This document shows, one piece after another, positions 1 to 54,420 of a stretch of DNA of 64,000 nucleotides. The notes beneath the pieces are model-generated. The model searched no databases, had not been told where the DNA came from, and was given only the letters and a program-made list of their open reading frames with translations. The stretch lies in NCBI GenBank assembly GCA_017525525.1, contig JAFXSQ010000066.1, forward strand, positions 1 through 64,000. The letters run 5' to 3'. Made by a program: the position numbers and the translations under genes. This DNA is from Lachnospiraceae bacterium (GTDB lineage: Bacteria > Bacillota > Clostridia > Lachnospirales > Lachnospiraceae). Every line of letters starts with the position of its first letter. Positions within the stretch are counted from its first letter, which is position 1.

Positions 1-356
1 AAAAACGGCCAAAAAAACGCAAAGAGGCTACCAAAATGGCGAAAAAAGAGCAAAAAGGTAGCCAAAACGCGGTAAAAACGGCCAAAAAAACGCAAAGAGG
101 CTACCGAAATGGCGAAAAAAGAGCAAAAAGGTAGCCAAACCGCGGTAAAAACGGCCCCAAAAACGCAAAGTGGCTACCAAAAAAGCGAAAAAAGAACAAA
201 AAGGTAGCCAAAACGCGGTAAAAACGGCCCCAAAAACGCAAAGTGGCTACCAAAATGGCGAAAAAAGAGCAAAAAGGTAGCCAAAACGCAATCAAAACGG
301 CCGAAAAAAACGCAAAGTGGCTACCAAAATGGCGAAGAAAGAGCAAAAAGGTAGCC
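1..356. repeat. 73-bp tandem stem-loop array (about five units)
   Basis: Units begin at 1, 74, 147, 220 and 293 with a 73-bp period; the last unit is truncated at about 356 and the array probably starts before the window. Each unit carries a perfect 7-bp inverted repeat, GGCTACC-N24-GGTAGCC, at 26-63, 99-136, 172-209, 245-282 and 319-356. Differences between units fall in loops and spacers while all ten stem arms are intact. The array lies directly upstream of the panD leader. A-rich on the plus strand; no credible coding capacity. Confidence 0.95.
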
Positions 357-24553: not shown

Positions 24554-24559
24554 TAATGA

Positions 24560-24659
24560 GGGAGGTGCGATTATGACGAAGTCATAATTTTGCATCGCAC
24601 TGACCGACTGGGCAGGATTGCTTTAGCAATCGTGCCATTACATATTATACGAGGGGGTA
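24560..24659 (+). repeat. 100-bp structured leader element, copy 1
   Basis: Differs by a single base from 54321-54420. It contains an outer stem GTGCGAT / ATCGCAC around the hairpin TTATGAC-gaa-GTCATAA, a second hairpin GATTGC-ttta-GCAATC flanked by GGCA / TGCC, then an AT-rich CATATTATAC box and a GAGGGGG ribosome site 6-7 bases before the sirtuin ATG. Confidence 0.93.
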
Positions 24660-24664
24660 GCAAA

Positions 24665-25387
24665 ATGAACGAGAACATCGAGAAGCTAAAGAACGCGATT
24701 GAAGAGTGTAATTACATAGTTTTTTTCGGCGGCGCGGGTGTTTCTACCGAGAGCGGCATACCTGATTTCAGAAGCACCGACGGCCTGTACAATCAGAAGT
24801 ACAAGTACCCGCCGGAAACCATCGTCAGCCACTCATTTTTCACCATGAGAACAGAAGAGTTCTATGAGTTTTATAAAGACAAGATGCTTTTCCCGCTTGC
24901 TTCACCGAACGCGGCGCACAGGAAGCTTGCCGAGCTTGAGGAGAGAGGGAAGCTTAAGGCTGTTGTTACGCAGAATATAGACGGTCTTCACCAGGCAGCA
25001 GGCAGTAAGGAAGTGCTGGAGCTTCACGGATCGGTTTTGAGAAATTACTGCCTTGGCTGCGGCAAGAGGTTTGACGGTCTGGATTATATCATGAAGAGTG
25101 AAGGGGTGCCGAAGTGCGACAACTGCGGAGGTGTGGTTCGCCCTGATGTGGTCCTCTACGAGGAGGGACTTGATTCAAGTATTCTTGCACGTACCATGGA
25201 GCACATAAGCAAGGCGGATATGCTCATAATCGGCGGAACATCTCTTGCGGTGTACCCGGCTGCGGGCATGATAGACTATTTCCACGGCAAATATCTTGTG
25301 GTAATCAACATGGCACCTACACCGAGAGACAAAAGTGCCGATATAGTAATAAATGATAAAATAGGACAGGTGTTTGCACAGTTATGA
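24665..25387 (+). CDS. NAD-dependent protein deacylase (sirtuin, Sir2 family)
   Basis: Removes acyl groups from lysine using NAD+. The 240-residue protein has the NAD motif GGAGVSTESGIPDFRS (about 22-37), TQNIDGLH near 101, the catalytic histidine in LHGS, and a four-cysteine zinc site (CLGCGKRF and CDNCGG). Length matches class U/III bacterial sirtuins. The start is the ATG after the GAGGGGG supplied by the repeated leader; a TTG 75 bp upstream is in frame but lies in the leader hairpins. It overlaps the next gene by ATGA. Confidence 0.95.
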   Translation: MNENIEKLKNAIEECNYIVFFGGAGVSTESGIPDFRSTDGLYNQKYKYPPETIVSHSFFTMRTEEFYEFYKDKMLFPLASPNAAHRKLAELEERGKLKAVVTQNIDGLHQAAGSKEVLELHGSVLRNYCLGCGKRFDGLDYIMKSEGVPKCDNCGGVVRPDVVLYEEGLDSSILARTMEHISKADMLIIGGTSLAVYPAAGMIDYFHGKYLVVINMAPTPRDKSADIVINDKIGQVFAQL

Positions 25388-26124
25388 TTGAGTTAACGGG
25401 AAGATCTTACTCTTCTGCCAATTGGTGGGGCATTGCCGAAGCAGGACTATGGATAGTCGTTTCGGTGGTGGTTGTCCTTACCCTGATCATGATGATCATG
25501 CGGGGGCATCGGGAGAGCAGATTGAAATCGGACAAGTGCATATATGTACCATTTATCGGAGACAAGGATGTATCGATAGATACATCCTTTCTTTCTTATG
25601 AGATGAGAACCGTGCTTTTCATGTATGTTCAGAAGCCGGTGACCTGGCTTTACCGAAGGGCGGAAAGAGATCATCCGTTAAAGCGCGGAAGAGCGAGGTC
25701 GACGGGGGCAAGACATTGTTATAAGGAGAGCCGTGAGTATCTGCTTTACTTTGTGGAGGACATGCTTGAATCTATCGGAGAACTGGCGAGAGTCGGAGCA
25801 GCGATAGGGGAGAGGAGGAATAAGTTTGTTCTCTTCCACGGTTATGACGCGCAGTTTGGCAGGGACAAGGAGGTTCTCTCGCTTATCATGCTCACGGACA
25901 AGGAGCTTGTGCTTGCGGAGAGGCTGAATGTGGTCGAAGAATACTTAAGGCGTATCTATAACGAGATGGAGAAGAGGCGCTTAAACGGCGGCATGCCGAT
26001 ATCCGAGGCTGCGGCAGGCACCGATCCTAAAGATATGCGAGTGCCCTTTATGTTCATGGAGAGCATGAACCATTTAAACAGCAGTAGCTTTGATAAAATA
26101 AAGCGCTTTTATGACGAGAAATGA
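25384..26124 (+). CDS. Unknown membrane-anchored protein
   Basis: The 246-residue product has one N-terminal transmembrane helix near 18-40 (LWIVVSVVVVLTLIMMIM) and a soluble, mostly helical remainder with many charged residues. I recognise no domain or catalytic motif. It is translationally coupled to the sirtuin gene through a 4-bp overlap. The 457-bp gap behind it begins with the second stem-loop array. Confidence 0.75.
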   Translation: MIELTGRSYSSANWWGIAEAGLWIVVSVVVVLTLIMMIMRGHRESRLKSDKCIYVPFIGDKDVSIDTSFLSYEMRTVLFMYVQKPVTWLYRRAERDHPLKRGRARSTGARHCYKESREYLLYFVEDMLESIGELARVGAAIGERRNKFVLFHGYDAQFGRDKEVLSLIMLTDKELVLAERLNVVEEYLRRIYNEMEKRRLNGGMPISEAAAGTDPKDMRVPFMFMESMNHLNSSSFDKIKRFYDEK

Positions 26125-26158: not shown

Positions 26159-26416
26159 GCTAACAATGAAGTGTATGTGTGGTAGTTTGTTAGCTGTCAG
26201 GTTGGCTGATCGGTTGCCGAATAGAGTGAAAAGCTAACAATATGATGTTATTTTGGTAGTTTGTTAGCCGGTCAGACTGATTTTATTTTGATTTTGGTGG
26301 TTGTGAGCTAAAAGGATACTGTGTTTGATCAAATCTGTTAGCCGAACGTCTGCGTTTCACTTTGATTTACAGTAAAAAAGGCTAACAATAAGCTGTTATT
26401 TTCTTTCTTTGTTAGC
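26159..26416. repeat. 74-bp-period stem-loop array (four units)
   Basis: Four 36-bp hairpins start at 26159, 26233, 26307 and 26381, exactly 74 bp apart. Each has an 8-bp stem GCTAACAA / TTGTTAGC (unit 3 has GCTAAAAG / CTGTTAGC, so part of its inner stem is lost), a 20-base loop and 38-base spacers. Loops and spacers are strongly diverged; for example loops 1 and 2 agree at about 12 of 20 positions. The stem begins GGCTA and ends TAGC as in the 1-356 array. Confidence 0.92.
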
Positions 26417-26420
26417 TTTT

Positions 26421-26470
26421 GACGAGGTTTCCATAAGACAAAATGTTTCGTTTTGAAACCTTGTCCTTTT
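26421..26470 (+). terminator. Probable terminator between the array and the pilus promoter
   Basis: An 11-bp stem GACGAGGTTTC / GAAACCTTGTC (one G-T pair) with a 23-base loop is followed by CTTTTTTT. The loop is long for a terminator, but the T-run and position right before the pilus promoter support the call. Confidence 0.65.
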
Positions 26471-26518
26471 TTTGTGTGAAAAATGCATGAAATATGGGAA
26501 AAAACGGTGTTCAAAAGT

Positions 26519-26547
26519 TTGACCGTGTCCGATATTTATGGTAGAAT
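26519..26547 (+). promoter_or_regulatory. Promoter of the type IV pilus gene cluster
   Basis: TTGACC and TAGAAT are separated by exactly 17 bp, 55 bp before the first prepilin ATG. Confidence 0.75.
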
Positions 26548-26602
26548 TAACGCGTAAAACTGGGCGAATTCTTAGGGAATTATGTTAACCTGGGAGAAGA
26601 TT

Positions 26603-27427
26603 ATGATTAATCCGAAAAATGATAAAAAGAATAGCGCTTCAAAAAAGAAAGACTATGATAAAGGCTTTACCCTTGTGGAGCTGATAGTTGTTCTTGTCAT
26701 ACTTGCGATTCTTGCCGCAATCCTTGTCCCGATGTTGCTCGGTTACATAGACAGCGCGAAAGAAAAGCAGGACCTCTTGAACGCTAAGAATTGTCTGACC
26801 GCAGCTCAGGCGGAGCTGACTAATTTGTATGCTACAGAGTCGGATAATGTATATTACGGATCTGTAATACCGAATGCAAAAGCGTTGAACTCCAACCAGG
26901 ATGTGCTTGCATTGAAAAGAAACAACCAAAAGCTTATTAATTCCGACTTTGCGGAAAAGGTTTTTACTACGGCGGATGATCATCCGTATTGTTTTATCAT
27001 AGGCATGGAGAGGGTAGATAAGGGTGATTACACGGTAAATAAGGATGTTCCGGCGAGCAAGCCGTCGAAGGTTACGCATGGGAATTATACGGTAATGTAT
27101 GCGCTCTACATGAAGACGGCAGATTCCGCTCCGCTTTACTTTGACGGTACGAGCTGGTCGAAGAATAATCCGAAAAATGTTGGCACATACGTAGACGATA
27201 ATGTTACAACCTTCAACGGCAGACAGGTAAAAATACAATATTATGTTCTTGCCGATGCGGGCGGAAAAGACCCACATACAGGTACTTTTGCAAAACTGAA
27301 CGAAAACATGGATTACTTAAACAGTTCGGATAAACGGAAGTGGTTTGTTCAAAAGTATGGCAAGCCGAATAATATAAAAAATATATGGATGTGGCTTCGG
27401 TTTTATGTATGCGCGGATGATTATTGA
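26603..27427 (+). CDS. Type IV prepilin
   Basis: The 274-residue protein has a lysine-rich leader ending DKG, a cleavage site Gly21/Phe22 and the class III signal FTLVELIVVLVILAILAAIL, with Glu at mature position 5. The helix continues into LLGYIDSAKEKQDLLNAK, then LTAAQAEL. This helix closely matches the small pilin at 45683 (GYIDSAKSKQTVLNAK), so the two are paralogues; the globular part here is larger (about 210 residues) and unlike it. The ATG at 26603 follows GGGAGAAG. First gene of the pilus operon. It may be a minor or alternative pilin. Confidence 0.93.
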   Translation: MINPKNDKKNSASKKKDYDKGFTLVELIVVLVILAILAAILVPMLLGYIDSAKEKQDLLNAKNCLTAAQAELTNLYATESDNVYYGSVIPNAKALNSNQDVLALKRNNQKLINSDFAEKVFTTADDHPYCFIIGMERVDKGDYTVNKDVPASKPSKVTHGNYTVMYALYMKTADSAPLYFDGTSWSKNNPKNVGTYVDDNVTTFNGRQVKIQYYVLADAGGKDPHTGTFAKLNENMDYLNSSDKRKWFVQKYGKPNNIKNIWMWLRFYVCADDY

Positions 27428-27459
27428 TTCATCCGGCGGAAGCGCAAAGGAGTGTGCTT

Positions 27460-30400
27460 ATGGACATAAAGAATAAACAAAAATCAAACAGAATAATTAA
27501 CGGCAATAAAGGCTTCACGTTGGTGGAGCTTATTGTCGTTCTTGTGATAATTGCAATTCTTGCCGCGATAGCCGTTCCGGCGCTCATGGGCTTTATCGAT
27601 AATGCCCATGAAAAGAATGTTATTGCTAATGCGCGAACCGCGCTTTCCGCTACCCAGGCTGCGCTCTCCGACATCTATTCCTCTAACGATAACTGTTATG
27701 ATGACAAGAAGCGTGAAGCAACAAGAATAAAAGCGGGAGCTGATACGACAACCGCATTTACGGTGTGGAATGTCAGAACATTAAGGGACACAAAGATAGG
27801 TACGGATCCGGAAACTCATGCCATTACCGAAGAGATAGGGTCATATACTGTGGGAAAGGCGGTTTACAAGGAGAATGAAAAAACATATGCTGCTTATAAC
27901 GGCTCTGATTGGGTAATTTACGGATCATACAAGGATGCTACGGACGCTATCGGAGTAAGTGATGAGGATGACAATACTATTTTCGTATGGCCATATACAC
28001 TCTATCAGGATTATGCTTATCAGCCGGAGGAGAAAGATCCGGACATAGAGTATGCGGATTATACCGAGGATAAGGAACCGCTTAAGACAAAGACAGTAAT
28101 TCTTAAGATAGACAGACAGGGAAAGTCGCGATTTGTGGATGAAGCAGTCAGCAGCAACAAGCTGAAAAAGATATTACTTACATTTACGCTTTTTAACGAT
28201 GATTCCACCGAATGTACGGGCTGGGTTCCGGATGAGACCGAAGCAAACAGGTTCTTTATCGGGGGTTCATTTTTGAGGCTTATGATGCCTTCTGACATAT
28301 ATAAGTTTGCCACCTGGGAAGATGAAGAAGGTGAGGGCACCTTCAACGAACCGGTATCCATGGGCAGATATGTCTTCTCGGAAGCAAAAGCCGATGTTGA
28401 TACGGTTACATTCTTTGCTAAGCTGGATGTGGAAGACGGAGGTAAAACGGCTACACTGAGCAAAAAATTCTTTACTGATTTTTTGAATGACAATAACACA
28501 GCTATGTATACCAAAAACGGGAATGAATATAAACAAAAAAACGGAAGCAAGCAGACAACAGCTTTTACCAGGGTTGCTACAGACAGTATAGGTATCGAGG
28601 ATTTCCAGGCTAATACCAATAAATACCGAAAGGTAGATGACGGTGCAACCGATTGCAGTATATATGTCTGGTATGAAGGCAGTACATTGTGTTGGTGGTC
28701 CGATGCCATGGAAAAAACTGAGGAAGAACCTGAAGACCATGTATTTATGCCTGTCGACTGCAGCAATCTTTTGGCGCTCAGAAACTTTACTAACTTTGAT
28801 TTCACGGGCTTTAATATGCATAAGGTTCAAACTACGGCTAATATGTTTGACCACTGTGCCAATCTTACAGCGGTGGATTTCGGCGAGAGCTTCTCGGCAC
28901 CTGATCTTACCAATATGTCAGCTATGTTCCAGTTTTGCATAAGTTACGAAAACCCTAATCTGGAAGATATAATCAGTGTCGGTAAAGAAGTAGATATAAG
29001 CAGAATGTTCTATAACATGGATAAAGTAAGTGATGAAAGAGATGGTCAGGAGTACGCTAAGGCAAGTGCGTATCCCAATGCTATATACTCAATTAATTTT
29101 GGTCATTTTCTTGATTATGAATCGATAAATGAAGAAGGTGAGATTATACTTACTAAGGTTACGGCGTGCGAACAGATATTCAGTGGATTGAATCATATCA
29201 CATCACTCGATTTGTCAAGTTGGAATGTATCAGGTATCAAGTCGTGCTATGGCATGTGCGCATGGTGCCAGAATTTAGAGCACATCAGGTTCAGCAAAAA
29301 TCCGGATGGAGTTGAAGATGCCGAGGATGAGGGCTGGTATATGCCCGAAGTCACCAATATGAGTTTCATGTTTTATGAATGTGACAAAATAGTCGACGGC
29401 AACTTTATAGGTAAGCTAAGAACAGGACCCAAGCTTGAAACTCTTTCGAATGCGTTTTGTAAGATGGATAATGTAGAGGTTATAGATTTAGCGGGTATCG
29501 ACCCTACATCGCTGACTAATATTGAGTCTTTGGTTAGATTGGACAAGAAGCTTCATACACTGAAACTTGAGACATGGAGAGGAAGAGCCAAGAAAATTGA
29601 CAGGATGAAGCAGACGTTTGATGATTGTAATTCACTAAAAAGACTTGATATGGGATACTGGGGGGTTAGTGAGATAAAAGTACAGGATTATCTTAGAATT
29701 GATGGAACCTTCAAAAATGTTAACTCACTGGAATATCTCGATATAAGCGGTTGGAAGATTGACAAAGTAGAAATGCCCATAGGTATTCTAAAGAAAGGGA
29801 CGCTTCAAACCGTTATAATGAATGATGCTGAGCTGCACTTTAGTACAAATTATGAATTGAATTATAGCAATAACAAGAATTTGCATACAGTGCAGATGAA
29901 GAACTTTAAATCTGATAATATGACAAAACTGCTGTTTAGTAACTGTACGGGATTGACATCAGCGGACTTTACCGGGGCCAATCTGCCTAAAATGACAAGC
30001 TTTTCGCTTAGCGGTTGTACGGGACTTACATCGGCAGACCTTACCGGAGTTAATTTTCCTGAATTAACAAGCCTTTCGCTCAGCGGATGTCAGGCACTGG
30101 AAGAGGGTAAGCTTGCCGGAGCAAAGCTTCCCAAATTAACAGCTCTCTCGTTTAAGAACTGTAAGGCAATGGTAACTGCAGACCTTTCAAGGATTGAAGC
30201 ACCTTTATTAACTACCGCAGAGTCTATGTTTGAGGGGTGCAGTGCTCTCGAGAATGTAGTACTCAAGGATAATGGCTTTGACGGTCTTAACAGATATAAA
30301 TGGATGTTTAAAGGCTGTACATCACTTACAGGTATAGCTTTTCTGAACGACCTGAATGTCAGACCGGCAGCTTCGGTAAATATGAGCTATATGTTTGAAA

Positions 30401-30834
30401 ACTGTACCGGACTAACAAACCTTGCGGGTGTTAATTCATCGGTATTTGCCAATGCAACAGACTTTAGCGGTTTATTTAAGGGGTGCACAGGACTCGGTGT
30501 AGTTGATGCAAGCAGATGGGATATAAGCAAAGCGACAGTTACTAAGGACTTGTTCATGAATTGTACAGGATTGACGAGCCTGGATATATCAAATTGGTCG
30601 ATGGGCACATCGGTAGATGTTACGAACATGTTTAGCGGTTGTTCGAATCTGACAACGATATTTGCTTCGGACAGATTACCGTACTCTGCAGAAAACACAT
30701 CGGTGTTCTCAGGCTGCAATCTGCTTTGTGGCGGTAATGGAACGCTGAGAACAAACAGAGGCGCAGACAAAGATCAGGCAAAGTATGCACGTATTGACGC
30801 TGAAGGTACACTGGGTTACTTTACACAGAGGTAA
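27460..30834 (+). CDS. Giant prepilin with DUF285/BspA-type repeat domain
   Basis: A 1124-residue protein with a true prepilin N-terminus: cleavage Gly18/Phe19 and FTLVELIVVLVIIAILAAIA with Glu at position 5. After a pilin-like helix and about 350 unique residues come roughly 650 residues of about 23-26-residue leucine-rich-like repeats. Examples are FTGFNMHKVQTTANMFDHC, LDLSSWNVSGIKSCYGMC and LDISNWSMGTSVDVTNMF, with the [NM]xxxMFxxC and LTSLDLS pattern of the bacterial-surface (DUF285/BspA) repeat. Such repeats are linked to host or matrix adhesion in other proteins. Typical prepilins have 150-250 residues. The ATG at 27460 follows AAAGGAG. Likely role: tip or minor pilin presenting an adhesin. 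Confidence 0.9.
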   Translation: MDIKNKQKSNRIINGNKGFTLVELIVVLVIIAILAAIAVPALMGFIDNAHEKNVIANARTALSATQAALSDIYSSNDNCYDDKKREATRIKAGADTTTAFTVWNVRTLRDTKIGTDPETHAITEEIGSYTVGKAVYKENEKTYAAYNGSDWVIYGSYKDATDAIGVSDEDDNTIFVWPYTLYQDYAYQPEEKDPDIEYADYTEDKEPLKTKTVILKIDRQGKSRFVDEAVSSNKLKKILLTFTLFNDDSTECTGWVPDETEANRFFIGGSFLRLMMPSDIYKFATWEDEEGEGTFNEPVSMGRYVFSEAKADVDTVTFFAKLDVEDGGKTATLSKKFFTDFLNDNNTAMYTKNGNEYKQKNGSKQTTAFTRVATDSIGIEDFQANTNKYRKVDDGATDCSIYVWYEGSTLCWWSDAMEKTEEEPEDHVFMPVDCSNLLALRNFTNFDFTGFNMHKVQTTANMFDHCANLTAVDFGESFSAPDLTNMSAMFQFCISYENPNLEDIISVGKEVDISRMFYNMDKVSDERDGQEYAKASAYPNAIYSINFGHFLDYESINEEGEIILTKVTACEQIFSGLNHITSLDLSSWNVSGIKSCYGMCAWCQNLEHIRFSKNPDGVEDAEDEGWYMPEVTNMSFMFYECDKIVDGNFIGKLRTGPKLETLSNAFCKMDNVEVIDLAGIDPTSLTNIESLVRLDKKLHTLKLETWRGRAKKIDRMKQTFDDCNSLKRLDMGYWGVSEIKVQDYLRIDGTFKNVNSLEYLDISGWKIDKVEMPIGILKKGTLQTVIMNDAELHFSTNYELNYSNNKNLHTVQMKNFKSDNMTKLLFSNCTGLTSADFTGANLPKMTSFSLSGCTGLTSADLTGVNFPELTSLSLSGCQALEEGKLAGAKLPKLTALSFKNCKAMVTADLSRIEAPLLTTAESMFEGCSALENVVLKDNGFDGLNRYKWMFKGCTSLTGIAFLNDLNVRPAASVNMSYMFENCTGLTNLAGVNSSVFANATDFSGLFKGCTGLGVVDASRWDISKATVTKDLFMNCTGLTSLDISNWSMGTSVDVTNMFSGCSNLTTIFASDRLPYSAENTSVFSGCNLLCGGNGTLRTNRGADKDQAKYARIDAEGTLGYFTQR

Positions 30835-30840
30835 GTATGG

Positions 30841-31518
30841 ATGAATGATAAGAAGAGCAGAAAAGTCAACAATGCGCAATCCGGCTTTACCCTGGTGGAG
30901 CTGATTGTAGTACTTGTGGTACTTGCAATCCTTGCCGCGATACTGGTGCCTGCGTTTCTCGGATATATAGATGATTCGAGAAGGAAGGAGGAGTATACCA
31001 ATGCGAAGATGGTATACACGGCTCTTCAGAGCAAACTTACCACTCTCTACGACCAGGGAATATCAGCAAATCAGGGTGATCCTGACGAGGATGGAAAGAG
31101 AACTACCGGAAAGGGCGCAAGCGCATATATGTGGAACAGTGTCTTCACGGAAGATGTATTCTATGCTTCAGGATTGAAGGAACGTCCGTATCTTTGTGGC
31201 TTTTTTGCAGGGAGTTTTACCAAGAAGGGAACCGGCAGGTACACCTACGCTGGAAAGAGTATAAGCGGGCTTAAGAAGTCTTATACGGTGTGTGCGTTAG
31301 TATATATGGAGACGAGCTTGAGCAAGCCGGTATTCTACTATAACGGAGAATTCCGTGATGAGCCGCCTGTGTTCGGAAGTGATGAGGGTTGTAAGACACT
31401 CGGAAGTGATAAAGACAAGGTTTATCTGGCAGAGCTTTGTGTGTTGGCCGGGTGCGGCGGAAGTGAAAAGGACAGCGCTTCGGGCACATGGGAAGAAGCT
31501 TTAAACTCAGTCGAGTAA
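30841..31518 (+). CDS. Type IV prepilin
   Basis: The 225-residue protein has cleavage site Gly15/Phe16 (NNAQSGFTLVE) and helix FTLVELIVVLVVLAILAAIL with Glu at position 5. A conserved continuation FLGYIDDSRRKEEYTNAK and a globular domain with cysteines (LCGFF, ELCVLAGCG) follow. It starts 6 bp after the giant prepilin stop, with GAGGTAAG straddling that stop codon as ribosome site. It lies between two giant prepilins and is probably a minor pilin that helps seat them. Confidence 0.92.
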   Translation: MNDKKSRKVNNAQSGFTLVELIVVLVVLAILAAILVPAFLGYIDDSRRKEEYTNAKMVYTALQSKLTTLYDQGISANQGDPDEDGKRTTGKGASAYMWNSVFTEDVFYASGLKERPYLCGFFAGSFTKKGTGRYTYAGKSISGLKKSYTVCALVYMETSLSKPVFYYNGEFRDEPPVFGSDEGCKTLGSDKDKVYLAELCVLAGCGGSEKDSASGTWEEALNSVE

Positions 31519-48882: not shown

Positions 48883-48911
48883 TTGATATTTGACTGCAAA
48901 TAAAGTATACT
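48883..48911 (+). promoter_or_regulatory. Promoter of the Lys/Glu-rich membrane protein gene
   Basis: TTGATA and TATACT with 17-bp spacing, about 39 bp before the start codon. Confidence 0.6.
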
Positions 48912-54311: not shown

Positions 54312-54320
54312 TGAATTATA

Positions 54321-54420
54321 GGGAGGTGCGATTATGACGAAGTCATAATTTTGCATCGCACCGACCGACTGGGCAGGATTGCTTTAGCAATCGTGCCATT
54401 ACATATTATACGAGGGGGTA
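54321..54420 (+). repeat. 100-bp structured leader element, copy 2
   Basis: One-base difference from 24560-24659; that base extends the outer stem to GGTGCGAT / ATCGCACC. It supplies the GAGGGGG ribosome site of glf. Confidence 0.93.

Follow-up and report, generated by a model that had tools for sequence, protein, structure and literature searches.

Palindrome arrays with unit lengths near whole helical turns adjoin genes for a nuclease-like protein in Lachnospirales

Introduction

Tandem repeats that keep a constant unit length while their sequence varies have been described in Bacillus, in families of 52-nt and 20-21-nt units whose function is unknown (Subirana and Messeguer, 2021, PMC8161180). 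The available text of that report calls the repeats enigmatic, describes short conserved signals, often with their reverse in one repeat, and partial conservation among strains, and mentions no interacting protein. Scattered, palindromic, intergenic repeats, often in tandem, are also known from the REP/TnpA-REP system (REPtron, PMC8266576). According to the available text of that source, a cognate gene lies beside some of the repeats, there is no evidence that the gene itself moves, and enzyme and repeat have co-evolved; REPs carry a GTAG-type tag, and TnpA-REP is an HUH enzyme that acts on single strands.

Here we describe a family of palindrome arrays in Lachnospirales and the gene for a nuclease-like protein that adjoins many of them. 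The family has in common with the Bacillus repeats, as far as the available text describes them, a fixed unit length, a variable sequence and several families per genome. Its unit lengths differ, with 74 bp in the reported array and periods of five to eight helical turns in the family against 52 or 20-21 nt in Bacillus; units of 51-54 bp nevertheless adjoin some members of the protein family, including a second copy in the same genome, and 52 nt is about five turns. Among the 27 consensus repeats in Table 1 of PMC8161180, ten have inverted arms that score at least 8, against 0.28% of base shuffles, so at least some of the Bacillus repeats are probably of the same kind. The arrays are, like REPs, palindromic, intergenic and scattered, with a cognate gene beside some of them. 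Unlike REPs they have long-spaced arms and no tag (GTAG occurs only inside the arm of GGTAGC units), their geometry is that of helically phased duplex DNA, and the linked gene has no Pfam match to an HUH (Y1) transposase; the C-terminus of its product resembles PD-(D/E)XK proteins.

Two other kinds of array were considered and set aside. Repeats some 36 bp long that alternate with spacers some 38 bp long recall CRISPR, which we rejected because only the repeat ends are conserved, the repeat interior diverges, and units and spacers within one array are often near copies. The core sites of integron attC arrays have an AAC/GTT core, which the GCTACC arms lack. Among the open-licence papers returned by our searches, none connects arrays of this sort with a nuclease in its title or abstract. 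On the DNA side the system resembles repeats already in print, though unexplained; its pairing with a nuclease-like protein is new within the literature searched.

Results

The array in the window

We analysed a window of 64,000 nt, the whole stretch of DNA under study, from a Lachnospiraceae genome. An initial annotation had described four 36-bp inverted repeats at a step of exactly 74 bp, with only the third altered. The repeats are present as described (Table 1): units 1, 2 and 4 are perfect, and unit 3 has three mismatches to GCTAACAA/TTGTTAGC. With up to three mismatches allowed, the arm pattern matches five times in the window (the fifth at 48896) against 0.26 expected, a number reached by 0 of 100 shuffles. 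A scan for repeated inverted arms returned two sites in the 64 kb, the reported array and the left end of the window, and none in five Markov-shuffled windows. The array at the left end has a period of 73-74 bp and runs off the contig start. Its units at 27-355, at the start of contig C24, are almost the same as those at G000:C11:73634-73888, near the end of C11; because these end arrays are nearly identical in units, C24 and C11 may be contiguous at this point, or one array may be a recent copy of the other.

The gene-free stretch around the array runs for the 478 bp originally given, from the stop codon at 26124 to an ATG at 26603. The array had been placed upstream of a pilus promoter; this order holds, and can be refined, as the array lies between the stop codon of the upstream gene and the apparent terminator of that gene. 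The terminator sequence is conserved in congener G012, which has no array; our terminator scan did not list it because its loop is longer than the scan permits. The promoter-like site is weak, as three such sites occur in 800 bp against 2.1 expected.

Table 1. Positions of the array, its neighbours and the second array in the window
Feature	Position	Strand	Details
Second array, same family	1..356	no strand	five GCTACC-N24-GGTAGC palindromes, 27 to 355
Upstream gene, 246-aa protein	25384..26124	+	ortholog in G012 86% identical
Palindrome unit 1	26159..26194	no strand	GCTAACAA-N20-TTGTTAGC
Spacer 1, 38 bp	26195..26232	no strand	
Palindrome unit 2	26233..26268	no strand	perfect GCTAACAA/TTGTTAGC arms
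Spacer 2, 38 bp	26269..26306	no strand	
Palindrome unit 3	26307..26342	no strand	degenerate arms GCTAAAAG / CTGTTAGC
Spacer 3, 38 bp	26343..26380	no strand	
Palindrome unit 4	26381..26416	no strand	perfect GCTAACAA/TTGTTAGC arms
Stem-loop and T run, read as intrinsic terminator of upstream gene	~26420..26475	+	from sequence; stem in fold
Promoter-like TTGACC-17-TAGAAT ahead of pilin-like gene	26519..26547	+	weak

At the pilus locus of G012, gene order and terminator sequence are kept, and the array site holds about 120 bp of unrelated sequence; the comparison revealed neither a target-site duplication nor a precise junction. G012 is 80% complete, and no homolog of the nuclease-like protein was found there. 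Because this syntenic locus is without an array, no link between the array and the pilus genes is needed. Several pilin-like proteins with a GFTLVELIVVLV-type N-terminus are encoded at 26582-31518; one of 1136 aa (27424-30834) combines this N-terminus with a long repeat-rich region, and its coding sequence includes a 72-bp repeat at 29944-30090. An Rfam scan of the window at gathering score gave no match at the array and only two GA-cis matches elsewhere, at 24557-24646 (43.8 bits) and 54318-54407 (47.9 bits). The former overlaps the listed start of a 265-aa ORF, which we take to encode a Sir2-like protein.

A dispersed family of arrays

The reported array is not a local feature: it belongs to a dispersed family with many scattered members. 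The pattern GCTAMC-N{20,28}-GKTAGC-N{32,44}-GCTAMC gave 47 forward and 54 reverse matches in the window's genome, and a reversed-pattern control gave none. These arrays, with periods of 72-75 bp, occupy at least 25 places on at least 20 contigs, some of the places sitting at contig ends, where they may be two ends of one broken array. The array recognised by the initial annotation is real; what had been missed was the dispersed family and the linked nuclease-like gene.

The pattern had no match in 36 congeners, several with incomplete genomes. When named genome contigs were scanned for two full units, 74 stretches matched; they come from 22 genomes, comprising 19 Lachnospiraceae or Clostridiales MAGs (a ruminant is named in the record title of nine), one MAG labelled Alphaproteobacteria and two Microbulbifer. 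The search for a second genome with the same period, proposed with the initial annotation, was thus successful, as other Lachnospiraceae carry such arrays. We treated the matches in UBA998 and the two Microbulbifer as unrelated, since they overlap or adjoin predicted ORFs in genomes without a homolog; no tRNA was found at any of the three. These three of the 74 loci were kept in the geometry, first A/T-phasing and flanking-gene analyses, and dropped, together with L105 (a duplicate of L128), from the covariation, RNA-folding and one-unit-per-array phasing analyses. Viral contigs contained no two-unit arrays. No predicted ORF is overlapped by 62 of 89 arrays; the other 27 overlap one, mostly short.

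Geometry of the arrays

The arrays have a tightly kept geometry. In 84 sequences the arm-to-arm distance is 30 inside a unit (346 of 375 counts at 29-31) and 44 between units (280 of 299 at 43-44), and the unit-to-unit distance is 74 (255 of 297 at 73-75), totals that take in only distances with at least four counts. An arm with at most one mismatch is absent from the next expected place before the first unit in 66 of 83 arrays and after the last unit in 67 of 82, and most arrays therefore start and finish with a complete palindrome. The pattern first noted in the window, of drifting loops and spacers between arms that keep their sequence, length and period, was borne out across the other genomes.

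One cleanly aligned ortholog pair, L065/L124, differs at 15.5% of loop and spacer positions (41/264, without gaps), at 1.4% of box positions (1/70) and at 4.0% of flank positions (71/1797). In four other ortholog pairs loops differ by 42-58%, boxes by 3.6, 14, 17 and 21%, and flanks by 8.5, 8.0, 17 and 15%, respectively; boxes differ at least as much as flanks in three of these four, where alignment is poor and the comparison unsafe.

In the rest of the sequence, A/T content follows a 10.5-bp period in register with the arms. The power is 0.467, and the highest value among 200 shuffles was 0.012. Taking one unit from each of 88 arrays gave a mean of 0.487 over 50 draws, against at most 0.020. 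The compensatory changes that had been suggested as a check are present, as the arms covary: of 333 units, 259 have A-T, 52 C-G and 22 mixed pairs (C-T in 16, A-G in six), and right arms start with GTTA in 275 units and with GGTA in 58. The two positions adjoining the arms pair above expectation (0.78 vs 0.49 and 0.62 vs 0.33), and the ten inner loop pairs show no pairing beyond composition, at most 0.08 above expectation and often below. Arm covariation fits RNA pairing and a DNA dyad alike, and separates neither. Folded as RNA, 311 of 327 units have their arms paired because the arms form a palindrome, as would any palindrome; the whole array region folds with z = -2.1, and 5 of 100 shuffles were as good. 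The A/T phasing and the whole-turn periods of the relatives described below are properties of duplex DNA. Among the options offered by the initial annotation a protein-binding array fits best, and a structured RNA fits less well.

A nuclease-like protein beside the arrays

Clustering of flanking proteins identified one family of about 270 aa that adjoins arrays in nine loci, each from a different MAG. The gene and the array lie within about 230 bp of each other, and the array is 5' of the gene in eight loci and 3' of it in one; no other flanking family found by sequence clustering lies beside more than nine array loci. Two members are encoded in the window's genome. One, at C4:167-976, adjoins a GCTACC array cut by the contig start; the second, on contig C75, adjoins a 53-bp array with GTCAACC arms, a type barely dispersed in this genome (four exact copies at two places). 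At six of the nine loci (L070, L075, L088, L101, L102 and L122) there is a gene that we take to be ComEC-like, a neighbour which suggests that the nuclease-like gene keeps its place in the chromosome and does not move.

The protein has a helix-hairpin-helix N-terminus and an order of C-terminal elements that fits the helix, three strands, helix and strand of PD-(D/E)XK folds in an AlphaFold model of moderate quality (pLDDT 74.7, pTM 0.49), and its RSK-E, PD and EH residues are invariant in 33 diverse members. Pfam and NCBIfam gave no credible family; no Pfam family matches more than two of the 33 members at E 0.1, the best match, to an unrelated family, having E 0.0018. A sequence search of the PDB returned nothing credible, and no match in a Foldseek structure search of the PDB reached E 0.001. 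The weak Foldseek hits include Bax1, REase-like and DUF820 folds, and many of the best are, we presume, PD-(D/E)XK folds. PADLOC profiles match the C-terminal domain only: PDC-S68 in four members (E 4e-13 to 8e-31) and HEAT_CxxC_PDDEXK in one of the four (E 5e-7). PDC-S68 and related proteins have a related C-terminal domain, but their profiles are about 1,200-1,270 positions long and leave the N-terminal half of the protein unmatched.

Homologs occur in 19 of 37 genomes of the genus, the window's genome included, and in 85 of 392 of the order; in a phylum sample of 398 genomes, nine outside the order match, only from residue 105 on. The order survey scored at most six candidates per genome, so copy numbers from it are lower bounds. 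Six or seven diverged copies per genome were seen in G061, G201 and other order genomes and in G428 and G438, and several of the copies checked in multi-copy genomes adjoin their own array type. Homologs in G020 (L136), G013 (L147), G169 (L169) and G434 (L290) have internal stops or split frames and are apparently decaying. Nine viral loci match the protein only within residues 101-268; this, with the lack of two-unit arrays in viral contigs, led us to reject a viral origin. An unannotated faecal "phage" record matches 87% of the protein, and no array was found in it. Plasmid searches matched 7 and 15 records; no match extends beyond 80% of the query, and most fall in proteins with an ATPase or helicase annotation.

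Tandem arrays at protein loci

We searched protein loci with a tandem-repeat detector that does not require palindromes. An array was found at 24 of 40 further nuclease loci and at 0 of 20 like-sized random stretches from nuclease-bearing genomes, still 0 of 20 at the looser settings used for a larger set of 127 distinct loci. Inverted arms of at least 5 bp are present in 20 of the 24 positive loci, and of at least 7 bp in 13. In the larger set an array lies within 600 bp at 90 loci (77 upstream, at a median of 111 bp from the start codon, and 22 downstream). By source, the genus set has an array at 24 of its 30 loci, the order set at 43 of 67, the set of genomes chosen because they carry arrays at 22 of 29, and the phylum set at its single locus. 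No tandem array was found within 1 kb at 36 of the 127, a count made with a detector that misses diverged arrays, such as that of L101 (the same locus as L273), and that found only a 19-bp sub-repeat in the reported array. The protein gene adjoins tandem arrays in most Lachnospirales loci examined.

Many of the homologs in the genus adjoin arrays of the same plan with other arms, among them GGTAAC, TTACAGTA, TTACCTATAA, GCGGGTATA, TGGGTAT, GGAGYAA and CCGGGCA. Arm sequence appears, by inspection rather than by statistical test, to differ between protein lineages. Periods, taken once per locus, fall at 51-54 bp (20 of 91), 61-64 (17), 71-75 (39), 83-85 (four), 94 (one) and 104-108 (seven), with three elsewhere (45, 47 and 57). 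The 104-108 bp rows are probably pairs of five-turn units; L222 has a period of 54 in one run and 108 in another. Periods near the gene thus cluster at five to eight helical turns, with a circular R of 0.727 at 10.5 bp, the highest among the 9-12.5 bp tried (0.725 at 10.75). The Rayleigh p for all 91 rows, about 1e-21, assumes independence, and the rows share ancestry.

On a FastTree tree of 85 proteins, period class (turn number) requires 20 changes against a shuffled mean of 41, and 0 of 200 shuffles were as low. The tree left out five off-phase rows (L132, L178, L188, L222 and L240) and the short protein L147. For L132 the off-phase row comes from a different repeat, on the downstream side of the gene; the GCTACC array that belongs to this gene is truncated at the contig end and does not enter the count. 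At about position 14000 of L381 (G006:C1:2860001-2880000), GGAGCAA-type arms recur at a 74-bp period; this type otherwise has 63-64 bp in G006, and arms of a single type may thus change their unit length by one turn.

The dispersed arrays of a genome are of the type that goes with the protein it encodes. Units of the TTACCTATA type number 19, 19 and 41 in G008, G014 and G025, with none in G000 or G006. GGAGYAA-type units (forward/reverse) number 20/16 in G006, 14/19 in G026 and 2/4 in G035, with none in G000 or G008; the reversed-pattern control gave 1/1 in G026 and 0 otherwise. A relative of the protein is encoded in 16 of the 19 Lachnospiraceae or Clostridiales MAGs with GCTAMC arrays; judged by E-value, two of the 16 encode nothing closer than a more distant type, and in one a contig end truncates the nearest copy. 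No homolog was found in RUG11835, RUG13935 or RUG12780. The contig with the ComEC-like gene of RUG11835 ends beside its array, so the protein gene may be lost in an assembly gap there, and MAG gaps may be the cause of the missing homologs. Two nuclease-positive congeners had four palindrome arrays in 690 kb and two negative ones had none in 799 kb, both small numbers; without the palindrome criterion, tandem repeats were equally common (10 in each).

Discussion

We think it likely, though far from assured, that the arrays are duplex-DNA sites for a cognate PD-(D/E)XK-like protein that may remodel and scatter them. The best reading, we infer, is a nucleoprotein array on duplex DNA with a nuclease-like partner, similar to REP and TnpA-REP but with an unrelated enzyme. 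Two protein subunits, joined by an N-terminal coiled coil, would hold the two arms of a single palindrome. The subunits would sit on the same face of the phased, bendable DNA with about three turns between them, and neighbours would align every seven turns, giving an ordered nucleoprotein array. The conserved nuclease-like site would let the protein cut at or near arrays, and repair or recombination after cutting would lengthen, shorten, re-copy and scatter them, as proposed for TnpA-REP and REP. Scattered arrays such as the reported one would be non-autonomous copies. A role of the protein in spreading and remodelling arrays is suggested by their dispersal and turnover, by co-variation, by the conserved residues and by analogy with REP and TnpA-REP.

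The protein might instead only bind, shaping the nucleoid or local transcription, with its fold serving for binding; ordinary recombination would then have spread the arrays. Such a structural or regulatory array would fit the helical spacing and the phasing of A/T content, the position of most arrays 5' of the gene, at a median of 111 bp from the start codon, is as in autoregulation, and Subirana and Messeguer, in the available text of their report, suggest that a protein polymerising on such repeats could stabilise the nucleoid (PMC8161180). We nevertheless hold this unlikely: the residues that one would expect in a PD-(D/E)XK active site do not vary among 33 diverse members, which suggests that catalysis matters, and a purely structural array has to be set against the finding that no other flanking family lies beside more than nine loci. 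Use in defence or addiction, with the arrays holding or licensing a nuclease whose targets are foreign DNA or DNA without arrays, is more doubtful again; several copies of the protein per genome and the likeness of its C-terminal domain to the tails of candidate defence proteins (PDC-S68) would suit it, but the PDC-S68 match covers the nuclease-like domain alone, and the nine viral loci match only residues 101-268.

The first option of the initial annotation, an array of RNA hairpins acting in a transcript, is very improbable. The array may be transcribed, because it lies before the terminator of the upstream gene, the available text on the Bacillus 52-nt repeats reports them as transcribed (PMC8161180), and 311 of 327 units fold with their covarying arms paired; yet arms that form a palindrome would pair in any case, pairing at the ten inner positions is no higher than composition predicts, period and A/T content follow the DNA helix, and the z of the region is only -2.1. 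Neutral satellite DNA, grown by slippage and beside the gene by coincidence, is just as improbable. That units within an array are often near copies would suit it, whereas the presence of arrays at 24 of 40 nuclease loci but at none of 20 random stretches, periods near whole turns, a period class that follows the protein tree, and loops in L065/L124 that change without a gap in 264 positions while the boxes keep all speak against it.

The preferred reading, of duplex-DNA sites with a nuclease-like partner, gives the constant-length, sequence-variable arrays of Lachnospirales, which adjoin the gene in many gut and rumen bacteria, a candidate partner gene family. The rule of whole helical turns is quantitative and makes the question of what the arrays do directly testable. 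If the protein builds or moves arrays, palindromes would have a means of spreading that is independent of TnpA-REP, and the protein would be a natural ruler, with repeat length set by the pitch of DNA. More tentatively, and with the odds somewhat against it, nuclease-like "ruler" proteins may create and maintain satellite arrays, each lineage setting its palindrome and a unit of five to eight turns and scattering the product, and this may also explain the 52-nt repeats of Bacillus and other Firmicutes.
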